Of a stretch of DNA of 64,000 bases, positions 3,001-42,203 are shown piece after piece. Position numbers and translations under genes: made by a program. This DNA is from an uncultured Planktomarina sp. (GTDB taxonomy: Bacteria > Pseudomonadota > Alphaproteobacteria > Rhodobacterales > Rhodobacteraceae): the NCBI GenBank assembly GCA_905182535.1, contig CAJJBZ010000011.1, positions 62,001 to 126,000 on the forward strand, given 5' to 3'. The notes beneath the pieces were generated by a model. The model did not search any database, was not told the DNA's origin, and saw only the letters and a program-made list of their open reading frames with translations. Position 1 is the stretch's first letter, and every line of letters begins with the position of its first letter.

Positions 3001-3875
3001 CGTCCTCTCCAGCCCTACCGACTGGCGTATCTTTTGCGACGGAGACCAACTCAGCGGGTACTAAGGTCAGATTAAAAGTATCAATTGCTGCAAGTGTGGT
3101 AAGTGAAGACATTCGCTTAAAGGCAAACGCGAGTTCAGCAACCTATGGTATCGTATCCGTGGCAGCACAGCTGGCACTAACAAGTGAGGGTGTGCGGGTT
3201 TCAAACATTGGCGATCAACGTGTGAAATCTAGCGTGGCAATAAATTCATTGGCAAGTGAAGTCCTATCAATTGATGGTCTGCGGGGTGAGGATCTAATCT
3301 TCATATCAAACGGAGCACGCAACCCGATTGTGCTTGGACAAGCAGTTAAGTCAACGGCAGAGGCGGCGCGCGAGTATTCACTTGTGGCTGATAAAGTTGA
3401 TCCCTCAAGTGTAAATATTTTTGATTTTTCTACAGGACACATCGTTGGCTCCCGGTCGATTATTGGTGATAATAGTACTGTATTTCAAGGCCTTGCATTT
3501 GATTTTAAGGGTGAGGTCAACGCTGGAGACACATTTAGAGTATTAGTATCAAAGGATAATTTTGACGATGCGAGTAACCTAAACAATATGCTCGAGACGT
3601 CGTTAATTAATAAAGACACTGGAGTTGGTGGGTATTCGGAATTATTTGGAAAAATTGTTTCAAGCACAGGTGCCGAAATTCAATCAAACCAGCAAACGCT
3701 AGAAACGGCTGAAGCCAGCTATCAACTAGCGTTTGATAATAAAAATGAGTTTTCTGGTGTCGATCTAGATACTGAGGCCGCACGTTTGATGGAGCAGCAG
3801 CAGGCGTATCAGGCCATGGCTCGAGTACTAACTACTGCGCGTGAATTATTAGATACTTTATTAAGATCAATGTAA
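2..3875 (+). CDS. flgK: Flagellar hook-associated protein FlgK, 5'-partial, frameshifted, unusually long
   Basis: Hook-filament junction protein HAP1. The reading frame is open at the left edge, so the N-terminus lies outside the window. The first part carries the D0/D1 motif 'PNILLDQRDKLLSKLSELA'; the end carries the classic FlgK C-terminal helix with 'EAARLMEQQQAYQAMARVL' and 'LLDTLLRSM'. The frame stops at 1175-1177, but a second frame open from before 1170 continues the protein, and the two join cleanly as ..VPSTN/KDLAEIL... A tandem CTAACTAA at about 1171-1178 explains it: removing one 4-bp copy restores one frame. The joined product exceeds 1,280 residues, against roughly 450-550 for a canonical FlgK, with a long Ser/Asn-rich variable middle region. 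flgL follows after 16 bp. The 4-bp duplication may be real slippage or an assembly error. Confidence 0.9.
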
Positions 3876-3891
3876 CGGGAGTTTGGGAAAC

Positions 3892-5160
3892 ATGTCGATT
3901 ACTACCTCTGGTTTTTATCAAAAAAATATAGATCTTTTTACACGTCTGAATAAGGATGTTGGTGATATTCAAGTACAGGTTAGTACTGGGAAGAACTTGC
4001 TGTCTCTAAAGAATGACACACAAGAAATAGCTAATCTAAATGCATCAGAAGAGCATAAGTTTGAGGTCACTCAATTTAATAAAAATGCAGGGCGAATAAT
4101 TTTAGACCTTGAGAGAATAGATATTAGTTTTGAGCAGTTGCAGAATGCTTCGGTGCGCCTAAAAGAGTTGCACATTGAAAGCTCAAACGGGTTCCTAACT
4201 TCTGAGGAAAGGAAATTGTTCCAACTAGAAGTTGAGAGTATAAAAACAGAAATACTAGGTGTGTCTAATGGTGAAGATGCAGGTGGAAACGGATATTTTT
4301 CTGGTATTTCTGGAAAAAACGAACCATTCAAAATTAATAATTTTGGTGCAATAAGCTATTCTGGGGCCGCTGGCGAAAAAACTTTACAGATATCACGTGG
4401 CAGCCAAGTGCGCCAAAATTTTTCTGGTGAGGAAGTGTTCCTAGCGGCGGGTTCTGCGGATGGTAAATTCTCAATTTTTGATGCTATTGATTCATTTTCA
4501 CAAAGTTTAAATTTTGATATGTCGTCTGGTACATCGTCAAATTTACTATCTGCAGGAGCCTCAGTGGACCTAGTGTTGCCAAGTTCTGGCCAAGCTGCTC
4601 AGTATAAATTTGAACTTGTAGCCAATGGAACCACATACAACATAAGTTCTAATGTTTACGCCAATGACTTTAGTGGAGTTGCCGCTAATATAAATAGCCA
4701 TATGGCTTCGACTGGCATTACAGCTTCAGTTGTCTCGGATAATAAAATTAGATTGTCTGGGGTGGGTGTCGACCTAAAACTTTCAAGATTTTCTACAGAT
4801 TTGGCTAGTAATATTGATCAATCGATCGGTGTACAAAAGGTGTTGGGTTCCAATATTAATGATGAAGTTATTTTACCTTTTTCAATATCTAATGCCGAGA
4901 TTCAGAGTAAATTACACGACACATTCGAACACTTTGTAAAACTGCGCACAGATCTGGGTGTCGCGGCTAAAACCGCACAAAATGTTGAGGATAATACCCA
5001 AGACGTTCTCATCAATTTAAACGAAGACATTTCAAAAATTGAAGATGCTGACATGGCTGCGTTGTTAACTAAATTACAAGGTCTATTAACGAATAAGGAA
5101 GCTGCTCAAGCCACGTTTTCTAGGCTTAGCAGTAAAAATTTATTTGATTTTATTAGTTAA
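3892..5160 (+). CDS. flgL: Flagellar hook-associated protein FlgL (HAP3)
   Basis: Second hook-filament junction protein, 422 residues, flagellin-like coiled-coil ends with a variable centre. The N-terminus (MSITTSGFYQKNIDLFTRLN) and the C-terminal segment rich in 'EDADMAALLTKLQ' and 'QATFSRLSSKNLFDF' match FlgL/flagellin D0 helices. I chose the ATG at 3892 because GGGAG at 3877-3881 lies 10 bp upstream; an in-frame TTG at 3883 is too close to it. It sits directly after flgK, the usual order, and is presumably in the same transcript. Confidence 0.9.
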   Translation: MSITTSGFYQKNIDLFTRLNKDVGDIQVQVSTGKNLLSLKNDTQEIANLNASEEHKFEVTQFNKNAGRIILDLERIDISFEQLQNASVRLKELHIESSNGFLTSEERKLFQLEVESIKTEILGVSNGEDAGGNGYFSGISGKNEPFKINNFGAISYSGAAGEKTLQISRGSQVRQNFSGEEVFLAAGSADGKFSIFDAIDSFSQSLNFDMSSGTSSNLLSAGASVDLVLPSSGQAAQYKFELVANGTTYNISSNVYANDFSGVAANINSHMASTGITASVVSDNKIRLSGVGVDLKLSRFSTDLASNIDQSIGVQKVLGSNINDEVILPFSISNAEIQSKLHDTFEHFVKLRTDLGVAAKTAQNVEDNTQDVLINLNEDISKIEDADMAALLTKLQGLLTNKEAAQATFSRLSSKNLFDFIS

Positions 5161-24021: not shown

Positions 24022-25633
24022 TCACGCAGATTTCGGTTGTTTCCTAAGAGCTATGGCGAGTACATCTTCGTCTACATGTGGTAAATACTGCTCGAAATTA
24101 GCCGTAAACATCGACACCAATTTTGATGCTTGGGCATCATAGGCGTCTTTGTCTTCCCAAGTACGTCTTGGATCTAGGAGAAGATCGGCAACCCCGGGAA
24201 CTGATGTTGGAACTTCAAATCCAAAGTTCTGATCAACTCGGAAAGATCCATTTGAAAGTTCCGTCAAGGGCTGCACTTAAAAGAGAGCGTGTGGCCCGGA
24301 TGGGCATACGACTGCCGTGTCCATAGGGACCTCCGGTCCAGCCTGTATTTACGAGCCAACAGGTAGCGCCGTGTTTTGCAATTTTGTCACGTAGCAGATT
24401 TCCATAGACCTCAGGTCGACGTGGCATGAATGGCGCGCCAAAACAGGTTGAAAATGTTGGCTGTGGTTCGGTAATACCGCGTTCTGTACCTGCCACTTTG
24501 GCCGTGAAACCTGAAAGGAAGTGATACATTGCCTGTGCTGGAGTAAGCCGGGCAATTGGAGGCAGTACGCCAAAGCTATCACAGGTCAGCATAATTATAT
24601 TTTTTGGGTGACCAGCGATCGCTGTGGGGGAGGCATTCGATATATACTCCAGAGGATAAGCGCAGCGCATGTTAGCTGTCAGACTATCGTCGTCGAAATC
24701 TAACTCTTTAGTTTCGGAATCATAGACCATATTTTCAATGATCGTACCGAATTTGGAGGTTGTTGCAAAGATTTCTGGCTCGGCCTCGGCACTCAAGTTG
24801 ATTGTCTTGGCGTAGCAGCCACCCTCAAAATTGAAGATGCCCCGGTCGGACCATCCATGCTCATCATCGCCTATGAGTACGCGAGATGGATCTGCTGAAA
24901 GTGTAGTTTTTCCAGTACCAGATAGACCAAAGAAAACAGCCGTATCTACAGGGTTTCCGGGAGTATGGTTGGCCGAACAATGCATTGGCATTATACCTTT
25001 TTCGGGAAGAAGGTAGTTGAGCAGAGAAAATACGGATTTCTTATTTTCGCCAGCAGCCTCCATTGTCTATACTCCATAATTTTACGATCAAAATTCATGG
25101 CAATTACTGTTTCAGACCTACAGTCATGGCGTTTGGGATCAGCGCTGAATGATGGGCAGTTTATCACAGTCCAATCAGCGACAAAATCGGCCAACTCATC
25201 TGTATCGGGGCGACGCAACATGTGGCGGATGAATAAACTATGCCAAGCCAGCTCGGTGACCATGCGCACATCAAGACGGTTAGCAGGATCGGCACCACCA
25301 AATAAATCCTGCACAAAGTAATCGCGTCCCTGCATGTGCATCACCATGTCGTCATAGAGCCGATCAAACCCCTTCTCTGACATTTCTGAGCTGTTATCCC
25401 ACCAAATAGTTGCTGCCACGGATTCAGATCTCACTACATGCTTGTCTTTTGGAGACCTTCCAGTAAATTTACCAGTGGAGACTAAGAACGCCCACCACGA
25501 CCCAATTCGCCTTCTTTACGCGCTAACGCATGCTCGATAATTGCGGGCTCGATTAGGTTATAATACACGTTACCCAGCCCTGTGATGCCTTGATCTTCAG
25601 GGTGAATTTGGGGTTTACACGTCCAGCGGTCAT
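24022..25633 (-). CDS. pckA: Phosphoenolpyruvate carboxykinase (ATP) PckA, several indels
   Basis: Gluconeogenic PEPCK: oxaloacetate + ATP to PEP. Start ATG at 25633 ([12 protein letters not shown]) with AGGAG 7 bp upstream. Landmarks in order: '[19 protein letters not shown]', '[19 protein letters not shown]', 'MPMHCSAN', kinase-1a '[14 protein letters not shown]', metal site '[13 protein letters not shown]', '[14 protein letters not shown]', '[17 protein letters not shown]', and '[15 protein letters not shown]'. These lie in different frames. Breaks: a missing base near 25592 (ACCCTGAAG), a missing G in the G run near 25480, a missing base within 25035-25070, and a shift near 24257-24268. 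Corrected length is about 538 residues, normal. Homopolymer miscalls explain at least two. Confidence 0.9.
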
Positions 25634-25713: not shown

Positions 25714-25745
25714 TTAGCGCAATCAGTGGCAGTTTAGCGCAACCA
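25714..25745. promoter_or_regulatory. Direct repeats in the pckA/chvI divergent promoter region
   Basis: TTAGCGCAATCA (25714-25725) and TTAGCGCAACCA (25734-25745) agree at 11 of 12 positions and start 20 bp apart, about two helical turns. They lie 81 bp before the pckA start and 166 bp before chvI. A regulator binding one DNA face is plausible; pckA is commonly under such control. The protein is unknown. Confidence 0.45.
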
Positions 25746-25910
25746 ATTTTGCCAGGGTGGTAAAATTAACATCAATGAAGCGAATTGCTGTTTTAATTGG
25801 GGGAATATTTTTACTGATTCGTAGTTACAGGTTGCACCGATCAGCAAAATTACGGAAAGTGGAACAAGTTATTAATGCTAAAATGTTGAGCCGATCAGAG
25901 GACAATACCA

Positions 25911-26618
25911 ATGTCAAGAATAGCTCTTGTTGATGATGATCGGAACATTTTGACGTCGGTTTCGATGATGCTTGAGGCCGAGGGCTTTGAGGTGGAAACT
26001 TATTATGATGGTCAATTAGCATGGGAGGCTTTCACAAAAGATATGCCTGATATTGCTGTTCTTGAAATCAAAGTTCCACGTTTGGATGGCATGGATTTAC
26101 TCGAGCGGGTGCGAAAAATTTCTACCATCCCCATTATCTTTTTAACTTCAAGAAAAGATGAAATTGATGAGATTTTGTGTTTGAGGATGGGTGCTGATGA
26201 CTATGTGAAAAAGCCATTTTCTCAACGTATTTTGTTGGAGCGTATTTGCGCACTTTTGCGGCGGCAGCGCGCAACTTCTTGCATTATGCCGGTAGAGGTT
26301 GCAGATACAAAAGTGATGGATCGCGGGCTGCTGTCTATGGACCCACTGCGTCATGGTGTGACTTGGCGTGGAGTGGACGTGGCGCTCACCGTGACCGAAT
26401 TTCTACTTCTACAAACACTTGCCCTGAGGCCTGGCTTTGTGAAGAATCGAGATCAGTTGATGGAAGTTGCTTATGGTGAGCAAGTCTACGTCGATGATCG
26501 CACCATTGACAGCCACATTAAGAGATTGCGAAAAAAAATGCGGATGGTGGATAGAGATTTTAATTCAATTGAGACCCTCTACGGCATTGGCTATCGCTAT
26601 AATGAGGAGAATTTATGA
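25911..26618 (+). CDS. chvI: ChvI-family response regulator with Glu replacing the phospho-acceptor Asp (D52E)
   Basis: 235 residues: OmpR-family receiver (1-120) and winged-helix output domain ('[20 protein letters not shown]', '[16 protein letters not shown]', '[13 protein letters not shown]'). The acidic pocket (VDDD, residues 7-10), switch Thr/Ser ('FLTSR') and Lys ('YVKKPF') are intact, but where ChvI proteins have AVLDIKMPR this one reads AVLEIKVPR: codon 52 (26064-26066) is GAA. Asp-to-Glu at this site is the standard phosphomimetic change. The kinase gene chvG, normally next, is absent. Position between pckA and hprK is the conserved chvI locus. AGAGGA precedes the ATG. I infer a kinase-independent, possibly constitutively active regulator. 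Confidence 0.92.
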
Positions 26619-26698
26619 CCCGCTCTTCTGATCATAAATCTGCTGGCTGCTTTGTTGGTTTTGAAACCTCTTCTACGGTATGCGTATGGAAGGAATGA
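26615..26698 (+). pseudogene. Possible remnant of chvG start (27-codon frame)
   Basis: An ATG overlaps the chvI stop by ATGA, the coupling expected for a chvI-chvG pair, but the frame runs only 27 codons ([20 protein letters not shown]...) before TGA. The rest of the 26699-26913 gap has no kinase-like sequence, and hprK begins at 26914. A full chvG would need about 1.6 kb. Reading this as the scar of a deleted kinase gene rests on position and overlap, not on similarity. Confidence 0.35.
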
Positions 26699-26913
26699 TC
26701 AGCCATTATTCCAGATTTAGATTCTGCCATCATTTGTAACGGCTCAGGTATCAGCTGTACCAACCTTCAGGCCTCAAACCTGGCGTCTCCACAAAAAATA
26801 TTGTTGCGTGCCTCTGCACCAGCTCTGGTGCGAATATTCAAGATGACATTGCAAATTATGGTTTTAAACTGCTGGGTGTGTGTTTTATTTTTTGCCTGCC
26901 GGCTGAGTGCAAT

Positions 26914-27375
26914 ATGAGTTATGATCCATGGAAAAACTATGCCAACGACTCTGATGGGGTGCTGCTGCATGCTACGGCTGTTGCTGTTGGAGTAAACGGG
27001 CTCCTAATTTTGGGCCCTTCCGGTGCTGGTAAGTCACACTTGGCAATTGAAATGCTGGCGCAGGGCGCTCATCTTGTTTCAGATGATCGAGTGTGGCTTG
27101 GCGCTTCTGAAAATGGTCTTATATTGTATGCTGCTACGCCCTTAGTTGGGCGTGTCGAGGCCAGGGGTTTAGGACTAATATCTTGCACCACGCAACCCAG
27201 CGCGCTGCTGAAATATTGTTTGGACTTATCGCTAATGAGCGATGCGCGCTTGCCTTTTCCGTTAGAGGTTACAAGGCTAGGCCATAGGCTTTTAGTGCTT
27301 CCTGGTGGACCTATTGCACCACAGGCTGCGGCGCTTCTACTTTTGCTTAAGAATGGATTTTCAGCTTATGATTGA
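26914..27375 (+). CDS. hprK: HPr kinase/phosphorylase, short alphaproteobacterial form
   Basis: 153 residues; only the C-terminal catalytic domain of HprK, as usual in alphaproteobacteria. P-loop 'GPSGAGKS' at residues 34-41, then 'MLAQGAHLVSDDRVWL' (the 'LVSDD' catalytic region) and 'VGRVEARGLGLIS', matching the HprK signature E-x-R-G. It phosphorylates HPr on Ser. The ATG at 26914 is chosen over an upstream in-frame TTG-type start because the protein then begins close to the conserved 'LLHATAVAVG'. Overlaps rapZ by 8 bp. Confidence 0.88.
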   Translation: MSYDPWKNYANDSDGVLLHATAVAVGVNGLLILGPSGAGKSHLAIEMLAQGAHLVSDDRVWLGASENGLILYAATPLVGRVEARGLGLISCTTQPSALLKYCLDLSLMSDARLPFPLEVTRLGHRLLVLPGGPIAPQAAALLLLLKNGFSAYD

Positions 27376-39960: not shown

Positions 39961-41514
39961 TTACATTACAATTGTAAATAACGCGCCTCCGAGATTTTTA
40001 CTTTCTCCGATCGTAAGTTTGCCGCCATGAGCTTCAATTACTTGCTTGCAAATATAAAGGCCCAAACCAGAGCTATTCTCGCGCACCGAGCCTCCCTCCC
40101 TTGAGCTATAAAACCGGTCAAAAATTTTGCTACGATCGGATTCTAGTACCCCTGGGCCTGTATCTTCAATAGATATTATCAAAACCTTGCGCCAGTTTTT
40201 TGAAAGTGTCACATGCACTTGGCCGGGCGACCCCGCAAAACTGACTGCGTTTTCAATTAGATTGATAATCACCCGAGCCACACGATCAGGCAGACCAGTA
40301 ACTTTGATATTTACCTGAATTTCTGAAGTGAGCCTGACCCCGGCATTCTGAGTGGAGGTTTCAAAAAAATTGATGAGATCATGGATGGTTGTTGAAAGAT
40401 CAAATTTTTCGCGCCGGGACGCTACCAATTCATGATCAACGATGGCAGCTTCTGAAATCTCAGAGATTAATTTGTTCATCCGAATTGCTTGTTTTTGAAT
40501 TGCTACAAAAATATCTGCCTCTGGGCCCTGTGCGTGTGAAATTCCATTTTCTGTATTTGCAATAATTGCTGCAATTGGATTTTTAAGCTCGTGAGATACA
40601 TCGGCGGCAAAACGTTCCTTATCAATAAATAGTGATATTATTTGCTGGTACAGACTGTTTAGGTTTCGGTAGAGTAACCCGACCTCATCTTTTCGGTTCT
40701 CAAAACCCTTGATTTCAAAACCTTCTAATTGGTCTACTAACGTGTCTGCTTCTAATCTGTGGTTTAGACGCTTGGAGAGTTGGCGGATGGGCATTGCGAT
40801 CGAAACTGCCAGTAGGATGCCAAAAATGATGGTAATCAGTGATAGCCCCGCAAGCACTTCCAGACGGGATCTGTTTCTACCGAGATAAGCCTCACGCAAA
40901 TGATAGCTGTCGGATATGTTCAAAATTGCTAGCGTGACGCCATCCACTTTGATCGGCACAAGGTAACTCAACTCATACCGATCTGTGATTGGATTGAGCA
41001 GTTGAAACTGTCGCGTGAACGTCGCTTTGCGCGGCACGTAGGGATCTGTCACGATCTTTAAATCAAAAAAGCTTTTGTAGAATACAAATAGTTTATCGAA
41101 TGGATCGAAATCGCGTGTTTTGGGAGTAAAGCCCTCCAACGGATTGTTGGGTAAGACCTGTACTTGAATTGGGGCCGTAACTCGAGAATTTTTTTCATCA
41201 AAATAACTGAAACTGTGTTGGTCACCTACCTGTGCTGTGAACTCTGTGATCACTAAACGATCTGTTCCTGCGAGCCGTTGATCACGCAGCAAAGCTTCAA
41301 TTGCTATTTTTTGTCTGAATTGGCTAAGATCTTGCCGGGCAAATATTGGCTCGATTAGTTTCACATAAAAGGTGGACCGCTCATATAGCTGATCTTTTTT
41401 GTGGTGTATCTCAACGATGGAGGCGTCTTCGGTCATGAAGATAAATGCCCAAAGGGTGATATTGAAAACCACAAGTAAGCTTAGAATTTTAGAGAGGATA
41501 CCGCGCAAAAACAT
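39961..41514 (-). CDS. Sensor histidine kinase, ChvG-like
   Basis: 517 residues: helix TM1 (about 6-26), a periplasmic sensor of about 190 residues, TM2 (about 218-241), HAMP, then HisKA with 'RFAADVSHELKNPIAAI' (phospho-His 308) and an HATPase domain ('NLIENAVSFA', 'IEDTGPGV', 'IFDRFYSSREGG', 'SSGLGLYICKQVIEAHGG'). The H-box and G2 region resemble ChvG/ExoS kinases. It lies 2 bp after its regulator gene. Because the chvI locus at 26 kb lacks its kinase, this could be a diverged chvG paralogue. Confidence 0.9.
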   Translation of the reverse strand: MFLRGILSKILSLLVVFNITLWAFIFMTEDASIVEIHHKKDQLYERSTFYVKLIEPIFARQDLSQFRQKIAIEALLRDQRLAGTDRLVITEFTAQVGDQHSFSYFDEKNSRVTAPIQVQVLPNNPLEGFTPKTRDFDPFDKLFVFYKSFFDLKIVTDPYVPRKATFTRQFQLLNPITDRYELSYLVPIKVDGVTLAILNISDSYHLREAYLGRNRSRLEVLAGLSLITIIFGILLAVSIAMPIRQLSKRLNHRLEADTLVDQLEGFEIKGFENRKDEVGLLYRNLNSLYQQIISLFIDKERFAADVSHELKNPIAAIIANTENGISHAQGPEADIFVAIQKQAIRMNKLISEISEAAIVDHELVASRREKFDLSTTIHDLINFFETSTQNAGVRLTSEIQVNIKVTGLPDRVARVIINLIENAVSFAGSPGQVHVTLSKNWRKVLIISIEDTGPGVLESDRSKIFDRFYSSREGGSVRENSSGLGLYICKQVIEAHGGKLTIGESKNLGGALFTIVM

Positions 41515-41516
41515 CT

Positions 41517-42203
41517 TTAAACTTTCAAGCGATAGCCTAGGCCATGGACGGTTGAGATAATGTCACATTTGGCATCAATTCCTTTAAGTTTTTGGCGGAT
41601 ATTGCGTATATGGCTGTCTATGGTGCGATCACTCACGTATATTGCCTCTCGGTAAGCCGCATCCATAAGCTGATTGCGGTTTTTAACGGATCCGGGACGT
41701 TGGGCCATTGCTAATAGTAACAAGCATTCAGTTACAGTCAGGTCTACAGCGACACCTGTCCAAGTTACCAAATGCCGATCTTGATCAATGCTGAGACTGC
41801 CGGCTGTCACCAGATCCATTTTGGTGTATCGATCTGTCTCGCTGTGACGGCGTAAGACCGCTGCCACCCGAAATAGTAGCAAGTGCTTGCTAAAAGGTTT
41901 GGTGATGTAATCATCTGCACCAGAGTTTAACCCTTTAATCTTATCTTCATCCTCACCCTTAGAGGACAGGAAAACGATTGGTAGGTTTGGGCGATGCGAC
42001 CTGACTGATTTCAGTAGAGAAAACCCATCTAGTTCTGGCATTTTAATATCAAATATAGCTAGATCAGCGCTATGATCCTTGAGGTGTGCCTGCGCAGATA
42101 AGCTCGATGAAAAAGATTTAACTATATACCCCTCATCATTGAGCATTTGCTCAAGTGGCGTCAAGATCTCGGCCTCATCATCTACTATTATGATCGTTGT
42201 CAT
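41517..42203 (-). CDS. OmpR-family response regulator, ChvI-like, with intact Asp52
   Basis: 228 residues. Receiver with VDDE acidic pocket and phospho-acceptor D52 in 'AIFDIKMPELDGFSLL', 'FLSSKGEDEDKI' and 'YITKPF'; winged-helix output domain 'LTVTECLLLLAMAQRPGSVK', '[16 protein letters not shown]', 'VHGLGYRLKV'. The output domain is clearly related to ChvI at 25911-26618 (shared TVTE-LLL-A-RPG-VKNR-QLM and DRTIDSHI), so the two probably arose by duplication. Transcribed first, then the kinase. Phased repeats upstream suggest autoregulation. Confidence 0.92.
   Translation of the reverse strand: MTTIIIVDDEAEILTPLEQMLNDEGYIVKSFSSSLSAQAHLKDHSADLAIFDIKMPELDGFSLLKSVRSHRPNLPIVFLSSKGEDEDKIKGLNSGADDYITKPFSKHLLLFRVAAVLRRHSETDRYTKMDLVTAGSLSIDQDRHLVTWTGVAVDLTVTECLLLLAMAQRPGSVKNRNQLMDAAYREAIYVSDRTIDSHIRNIRQKLKGIDAKCDIISTVHGLGYRLKV

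Follow-up and report, generated by a model that had tools for sequence, protein, structure and literature searches.

This research work indicated that the ChvI-type response regulator encoded in the window, i.e. the 64,000-nucleotide stretch of DNA of an uncultured Planktomarina sp. that was analysed, bears glutamate instead of aspartate at its phospho-acceptor site, residue 52, in a lineage where the partner kinase ChvG is dead or gone. The ChvG/ChvI system of Alphaproteobacteria is the one named ExoS/ChvI in Sinorhizobium and BvrS/BvrR in Brucella. From the comparison of relatives, we hold with moderate confidence that Glu52 ChvI may be a kinase-independent, locked-on regulator, left after ChvG decayed in place. 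A fuller scenario, in which one ancestral kinase death was followed by two independent rescues of the orphan regulator through a phosphomimetic Asp-to-Glu change, with the intermediate stages still visible in living relatives, is offered more tentatively and falls somewhat short of probable. The stages themselves are seen in relatives: intact pair, His-less kinase, shrunken kinase, Glu-bearing orphan and lost regulator. The locus is laid out as follows.

25911 to 26618, forward strand: chvI, a ChvI-type OmpR/PhoB-type response regulator of 235 aa, assigned from its open reading frame, Pfam, gene order and the same neighbours in congeners.
26064 to 26066, forward strand: codon 52 of chvI, GAA, i.e. 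Glu replacing the phospho-acceptor Asp, from the sequence and a codon table over relatives.
26914 to 27375, forward strand: hprK, of the HPr kinase C-terminal type (Pfam PF07475 on the open reading frame 26878-27372; start ATG 26914 picked by eye).

In G000, the genome holding the window (a 2.39-Mb assembly, 74% complete), the gene order is pckA (divergent), chvI, hprK, rapZ, EIIA-Man and HPr, with the same neighbours in congeners. The protein has a receiver (residues ~1-120) and a winged-helix, OmpR-type DNA-binding domain (~133-233; Pfam PF00072 and PF00486, Trans_reg_C), and it is a ChvI by these domains, by family match and by its position between pckA and the hprK-rapZ-PTS genes; the adjoining cognate ChvG and the phospho-acceptor Asp52 are missing. 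The chvI orthologue is kept in G000, the two-component system is not. Identity to this ChvI was 74-91% for the best 80 loci of a separate, named collection and mostly 58-78% for the best copies of family genomes. The glutamate codon and its motif AVLEIKVPR, given in a preliminary description of this DNA, were re-read in the sequence, and the other receiver residues that it had listed as present were found as well (D8, D9, T79, K101), together with Y98, the receiver being otherwise canonical. Thr79, Tyr98 and Lys101 are also retained in the other five Glu52 ChvI proteins. With its PF00072 match, its predicted fold and Glu52, the protein belongs to the aspartate-less (pseudo-) receivers, which keep the receiver fold but have another residue at the place of the acceptor Asp. 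The AlphaFold model (mean pLDDT 77.5, pTM 0.55; block means 90-96 over residues 1-80 and 70-86 over residues 81-120) supports the predicted receiver fold only and says nothing on activation; likewise, a sequence search of the PDB returned many OmpR-type regulators, of which none among the best 60 of 95 decides between active and inactive. A general decay of receivers in G000 was rejected as the origin of Glu52, as eight of nine receiver matches were read at site 52 and the seven other than the window ChvI, the sole one with Glu, still have Asp. As for the divergent neighbour, pckA (~24046-25613, reverse strand) lies in four pieces and three frames in the window assembly, in one frame from residue 37 onward in G149, and with one frame change in G162; its fragmentation reflects either assembly indel errors or a decaying gene.

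The absence of a kinase between chvI and hprK, where the preliminary description had seen just a short frame overlapping the chvI stop, was indeed observed: the gap measures 295 bp, counted to the hprK start at ATG 26914, and comprises the following.

26615 to 26698, forward strand: frame of 27 codons that shares an ATGA with the end of chvI; it occupies the place of the chvG start in relative G039.
26806 to 26901, forward strand: possible fossil of the ChvG C-terminus, not significant in G000 alone (-3.3 bits, 8/100 shuffles as good).

In G039, chvI spans 3387-4088 and chvG begins at 4085. A hydrophobic stretch in the frame next to the 27-codon frame looks like ChvG TM1 by eye and was not significant in a profile search. 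At the same place as the candidate C-terminal fossil, a faint match was obtained in G149 (1.3 bits) and a clear one in G162 (39.9 bits), 0/100 shuffles being as good in either case; the kinase was therefore lost, as had been proposed, and it was lost in place. Between the chvI and hprK frames, G000, G149 and G162 each have a gap of ~250-320 bp, where intact congeners carry a chvG of 583-584 codons, and since all three gaps are far too short, the absence is not a small-indel artefact. The rest of G000, whose search the preliminary description had proposed, yielded no ChvG with a ChvG query, the top match (149 bits) being the kinase of a second pair described below; with an assembly 74% complete, G000 by itself does not prove that a ChvG is lacking elsewhere. 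A relocated ChvG was also sought in the kinase-less congeners, where, besides decayed frames and the second-pair kinase (132-149 bits), the best match reached 66 bits (G158). Pfam Sensor_TM1 had no match in G000, a weak test, as the search took in G000 and not the intact congeners.

Could these features stem from an assembly or sequencing artefact? The incomplete assembly and a pckA broken by several frame changes speak for it, but Glu52 together with kinase absence recurs in G149 and G162 (chvI 91% and 82% identical to that of G000), and in G166 and G158 Glu52 stands beside a kinase that is dead or shortened, so that we regard an artefact as very improbable. The codon is GAA in G000, G152, G158 and G166, and GAG in G149 and G162; as the last two genomes were assembled separately and also encode Glu, by the other codon, the reading of codon 52 can hardly be an assembly error.

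Within the genus, 20 genomes were sampled and 15 had chvI at E<=1e-40. ChvG is intact and accompanied by Asp52 in four of these 15 (G154, G155, G156, G157), is His-less, truncated or gone in ten, and is off contig in one (G152, with Glu52), where the locus runs to the contig border and the kinase is unreadable. Its decay is graded: a full-length ChvG-like frame of 550 aa with the catalytic His changed to Gly and a degenerate ATP-lid region (G045 and G160, Asp52; G166, Glu52), then an internally deleted form of 151 codons (G158, Glu52), then ~60 remaining codons (G161, Asp52), then a fossil (G162). Besides the C-terminal remnant of G162, an N-terminal fossil was detected in G161 (8.9 bits, 0/100 shuffles as good); fossils were not significant in G151 (22/100 shuffles as good) and G165 (35/100). 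No kinase is left in G000, G149 and G162, all with Glu52, nor in G151 and G165, which have Asp52 and D9N; D9N also occurs in G162, with Glu52. The preliminary description had linked Glu52 with the loss of chvG, and this link stood in one direction: Glu52 is found only where ChvG is dead, absent or unreadable (6/11 genomes, G152 being the unreadable one), in 0/4 intact congeners and in 0/129 genomes of other genera, while five kinase-less species keep Asp52 (G045, G160, G161, G151, G165), so that a lost kinase does not call for Glu52. Tested over the genus by itself, with G152 placed among the kinase-less genomes, the association falls short of significance (Fisher p = 0.10). The 550-codon His-less frames lie at L059:6857-8509 (G045), L089:6143-7795 (G160) and L090:4146-5798 (G166), read TGEINNP or AGEIINL, and had a dN/dS of 0.24-0.33 in the two pairs compared; judging from these open frames, a pseudokinase with a leftover role is possibly encoded.

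At the scale of the family, 149 genomes drawn from a larger group were searched (G000, G045 of the same genus and 147 of other genera), and 135/149 had a ChvI match at E<=1e-40. Residue 52 was read in 132 of the 147 genomes of other genera, 14 having no match and G136 only a 44% paralogue, and all 132 chvI genes have both Asp52 and Asp9. A His-bearing ChvG lies downstream in 129/132, with no kinase alignment obtained for G142, G030 and G125; the chvI loci of G142 and G030 are near contig ends. Among 578 confirmed loci of the separate collection, the best 80 were retained, a set that may overlap the family set, and 78 of these have Asp52 and His; L262 ends too early, and the remaining one is G149 itself, with Glu52. 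Another natural Asp-less receiver is the ChvI-like paralogue L070:3739-4422 (G082 contig 27; 47%), with Asn52 and Thr9; an Asp52 chvI is present in G082 as well.

A tree of 25 taxa, built on ChvI (column 52 omitted), RapZ, PckA and EtfA, grouped the 11 kinase-less species with a support of 100/100. A PckA tree of 107 taxa also placed the 14 included kinase-less or chvI-less genomes in one clade (0.999), making up 9.0% of tree length. Since the kinase-less species form one clade, kinase decay may have begun once, in their ancestor. This clade is presumably the marine RCA cluster, which PMC10675870 describes as split into three genera differing in G+C; the kinase-less and chvI-less loci have a G+C of 42-55%. 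On the 25-taxon tree, Glu52 needs two changes, counted as label changes that do not tell gain from loss; one change suffices in 0% of 200 bootstrap trees, and a single Glu52 clade was rejected (AU p 0.001). With all outgroups Asp52, two gains cost 2 steps, counted by hand, and a single gain followed by two or three reversals costs 3-4: Glu52 was probably gained twice, one gain with reversals being less parsimonious. The chance that both gains fall in the kinase-less clade is ~0.8%, calculated by hand and dependent on outgroup sampling, which was mostly nearest by chvI. The preliminary description had suggested an unusual rewiring of this system; the kinase loss is common to the whole lineage, and Glu52 was probably gained twice within it.

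Selection on chvI was estimated in kinase-less and kinase-bearing pairs. The dN/dS of chvI was 0.072-0.236 in 10 kinase-less pairs (non-independent, six being Glu52-Glu52), higher in the receiver than in the DNA-binding domain in 10/10, and 0.012-0.019 in three kinase-bearing pairs of high dS (0.9-3.2); because of this high dS, pckA in the same pairs was used as yardstick. Relative to pckA, chvI evolved faster in 9/9 kinase-less pairs and slower in 3/3 kinase-bearing pairs; relative to rapZ, it was faster in 6/7 kinase-less pairs and slower in G160/G045. Its dN/dS being low but raised against pckA and rapZ, chvI is under purifying selection, most strongly in the DNA-binding domain, but this selection is relaxed. 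A 19-residue stretch of that domain is identical in G000 and the four intact-kinase congeners. Upstream of the gene, the following was found.

25817 to 25834, forward strand: conserved element ATTCG-N10-TTG, a candidate promoter or operator upstream of chvI, its pattern conserved in relatives.

The element occurs in 119/189 upstream regions outside the genus, against an expectation of 0.65 from base shuffling, the pattern having been picked after inspection of these same regions, and within the genus in 4/4 intact-kinase congeners and 10/11 kinase-less species with intact chvI, G162 lacking the strict pattern. Among chvI-losing genomes, it survives in G163 and G153, is absent from G164, and has one match elsewhere in G159; being retained in G163 and G153, it does not track chvI exactly. 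The Caulobacter-type ChvI motif TTGC-N3-GCAA was dropped, as it was present in only 4/189 upstream regions. Between pckA and chvI, two TTAGCGCAA boxes (25714-25722 and 25734-25742) are perhaps a pckA operator, and parts of GTTTAGCGCAACCA rank with the most frequent spaced words of the pckA-chvI intergenic region in the family.

The regulator itself has been lost in part of the genus, five of the 20 genomes yielding no chvI match (G163, G153, G164, G159, G150). In G163, only residues 1-35 and 213-233 are left (L200:3741-3912), with the upstream element still there. In G153 and G164, pckA and hprK lie together without chvI between them; in G159, the 528 bp up to the contig end hold no chvI match, a contig-limited reading; in G150, rapZ was not found either. 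The system had been called essential-type in the preliminary description, which does not fit a gene that is wrecked in G163, missing from G153 and G164 and, within the limits of its contig, missing from G159. Given the relaxed selection on chvI and its complete loss in sister species, the output of the gene looks dispensable in the kinase-less lineage.

Such losses are what would be expected from drift in a dying gene, where Glu52 is a mild, near-neutral step towards the loss of chvI and the protein is weak when unphosphorylated, or inactive. The faster evolution of chvI than of pckA in kinase-less pairs alone, the further active-site changes (D9N in G162 and in G151/G165) and the Asp52 retained in five kinase-less species point the same way. 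Drift nonetheless appears unlikely to us, though it deserves serious attention: the dN/dS of chvI is far below 1 with the DNA-binding domain held, the frame is intact in all 11 kinase-less species and the element present upstream in 10 of those, and each of the two site-52 changes seen in this gene within the genus produced Glu rather than Asn, Gly or Ala.

The window also holds a second ChvI-like pair (39961-42203, reverse strand), which the preliminary description did not include.

41517 to 42203, reverse strand: second ChvI-like regulator, with Asp52, 48% identical to the first, from sequence search and residue reading.
39961 to 41514, reverse strand: histidine kinase of 517 aa with HELKNP, adjoining the second regulator; at 164 of 740 bits it stays below the NCBIfam cut-off for ChvG.

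This second regulator is present in G000, G149, G045 and G160, and had no match at E<=1e-40 in G162, G152, G158 and G166, all with Glu52, or in G161. Cross-talk from its kinase to Glu52 ChvI was rejected, Glu not being a normal acceptor and the pair's regulator not being found in the Glu52 species G162. The pair also bears on another explanation, according to which Glu52 ChvI is a pseudo-receiver driven by some other input, i.e. a partner protein, a ligand or a heterodimer with the second ChvI-like regulator. Precedent exists in Asp-less receivers such as RitR (PMC5965902), and the paralogue accompanies ChvI in the four genomes named above; however, as it was not found in four Glu52 species, it is no shared partner, and we judge such an input improbable.

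From a mechanistic point of view, the locked-on reading that we prefer would run as follows. The gene chvG decayed in place, as the comparison of several species shows, and this decay may have had a single start in the common ancestor of the kinase-less species. The receiver would then no longer have needed phosphorylation, its sequence would have relaxed, and Asp52 would have changed to Glu at two places of the tree. Glu52, with the retained Thr79 and Lys101, would most likely hold the receiver in an active-like state, in which ChvI may dimerise and bind promoters without a kinase. How much active regulator there is would depend on chvI transcription, perhaps via the upstream element, instead of on an envelope signal.

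Whether Glu at this site means "on" was evaluated from published variants. In Agrobacterium, ChvI(D52E) was constitutively active and bound a promoter that the wild type does not, and D52A was defective, though the hcp operon also went up when wild-type or D52A ChvI was overexpressed (PMC3460628). In Caulobacter, PMC12864828 gives no significant rise of PchvR for ChvI(D52E) in rich medium; in Rhodobacter sphaeroides, CenR D56E made longer cells, interpreted there as increased activity (PMC9275681). Where the acceptor Asp is replaced, Glu is the most frequent substitute, in 26% of ALRs (PMC4395418). In other regulators, D-to-E alone is described as often insufficient, a second change being often needed (PMC4395418, PMC12632262); ChxR, with its natural Glu, still bound DNA when this residue was changed to Asp or Ala (PMC4395418), and is among the cases where the phosphomimetic-Glu idea failed. 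That idea was disproved in some pseudo-receivers according to PMC12632262, which treats the trigger of Glu pseudo-receivers, and the part of Glu in their activity, as open questions. The same source lists, among the usual changes of pseudo-receivers, Asn at the second acidic position and Glu at the acceptor position, and we counted it in favour of the locked-on reading that D9N and Glu52 of G162 match them.

Among titles and abstract openings, with most subscription journals outside, no report of ChvG loss or of a natural Glu52 in this group was found; the whole ChvGI system is absent from two reduced Liberibacter genomes (PMC3885570). Here, close relatives span a live kinase with Asp, a dead kinase with Asp, a dead or absent kinase with Glu, and no regulator, and such a series makes the order of events readable and Glu-means-on testable by one-residue swaps. 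Caulobacter needs this envelope-stress sensor under osmotic and cell-wall stress (PMC9731502). If our preferred reading is true, a marine lineage has disconnected a sensor that Caulobacter needs, and a sensory switch can turn by a natural route into a locked-on transcription factor.

Compared with the ChvG/ChvI of other Alphaproteobacteria, the window locus is alike in its orthologous sequence, in lying next to pckA, hprK and the PTS genes, and in that site 52 is the residue mutated elsewhere; it differs in having no usable kinase in its lineage, a Glu acceptor site and a chvI dispensable in sisters. PhoB D10A/D53E is reportedly a constitutively active receiver mutant, and the D9N and Glu52 of G162 presumably lie at its two positions, going by residue numbering; unlike that mutant, G162 is natural and has Asn rather than Ala, and G000 keeps D9. 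With laboratory ChvI(D52E), whose Agrobacterium form binds DNA and is constitutive (PMC3460628), the window protein shares the same residue at the same position, but its Glu52 is natural, stands in a kinase-dead lineage and was apparently gained twice. ChxR and the plant PRRs are Asp-less or pseudo-receivers with Glu like the window ChvI, ChxR being of OmpR type and binding DNA without phosphorylation (PMC4395418); unlike them, the receiver of G000 is otherwise canonical and has close relatives with Asp and a live kinase. Finally, RitR is likewise an orphan regulator, derived from a CovR-type two-component regulator that left its kinase (PMC5965902), but its site bears Asn (PMC4395418) and it turned into a Cys redox sensor, whereas the window ChvI has Glu.
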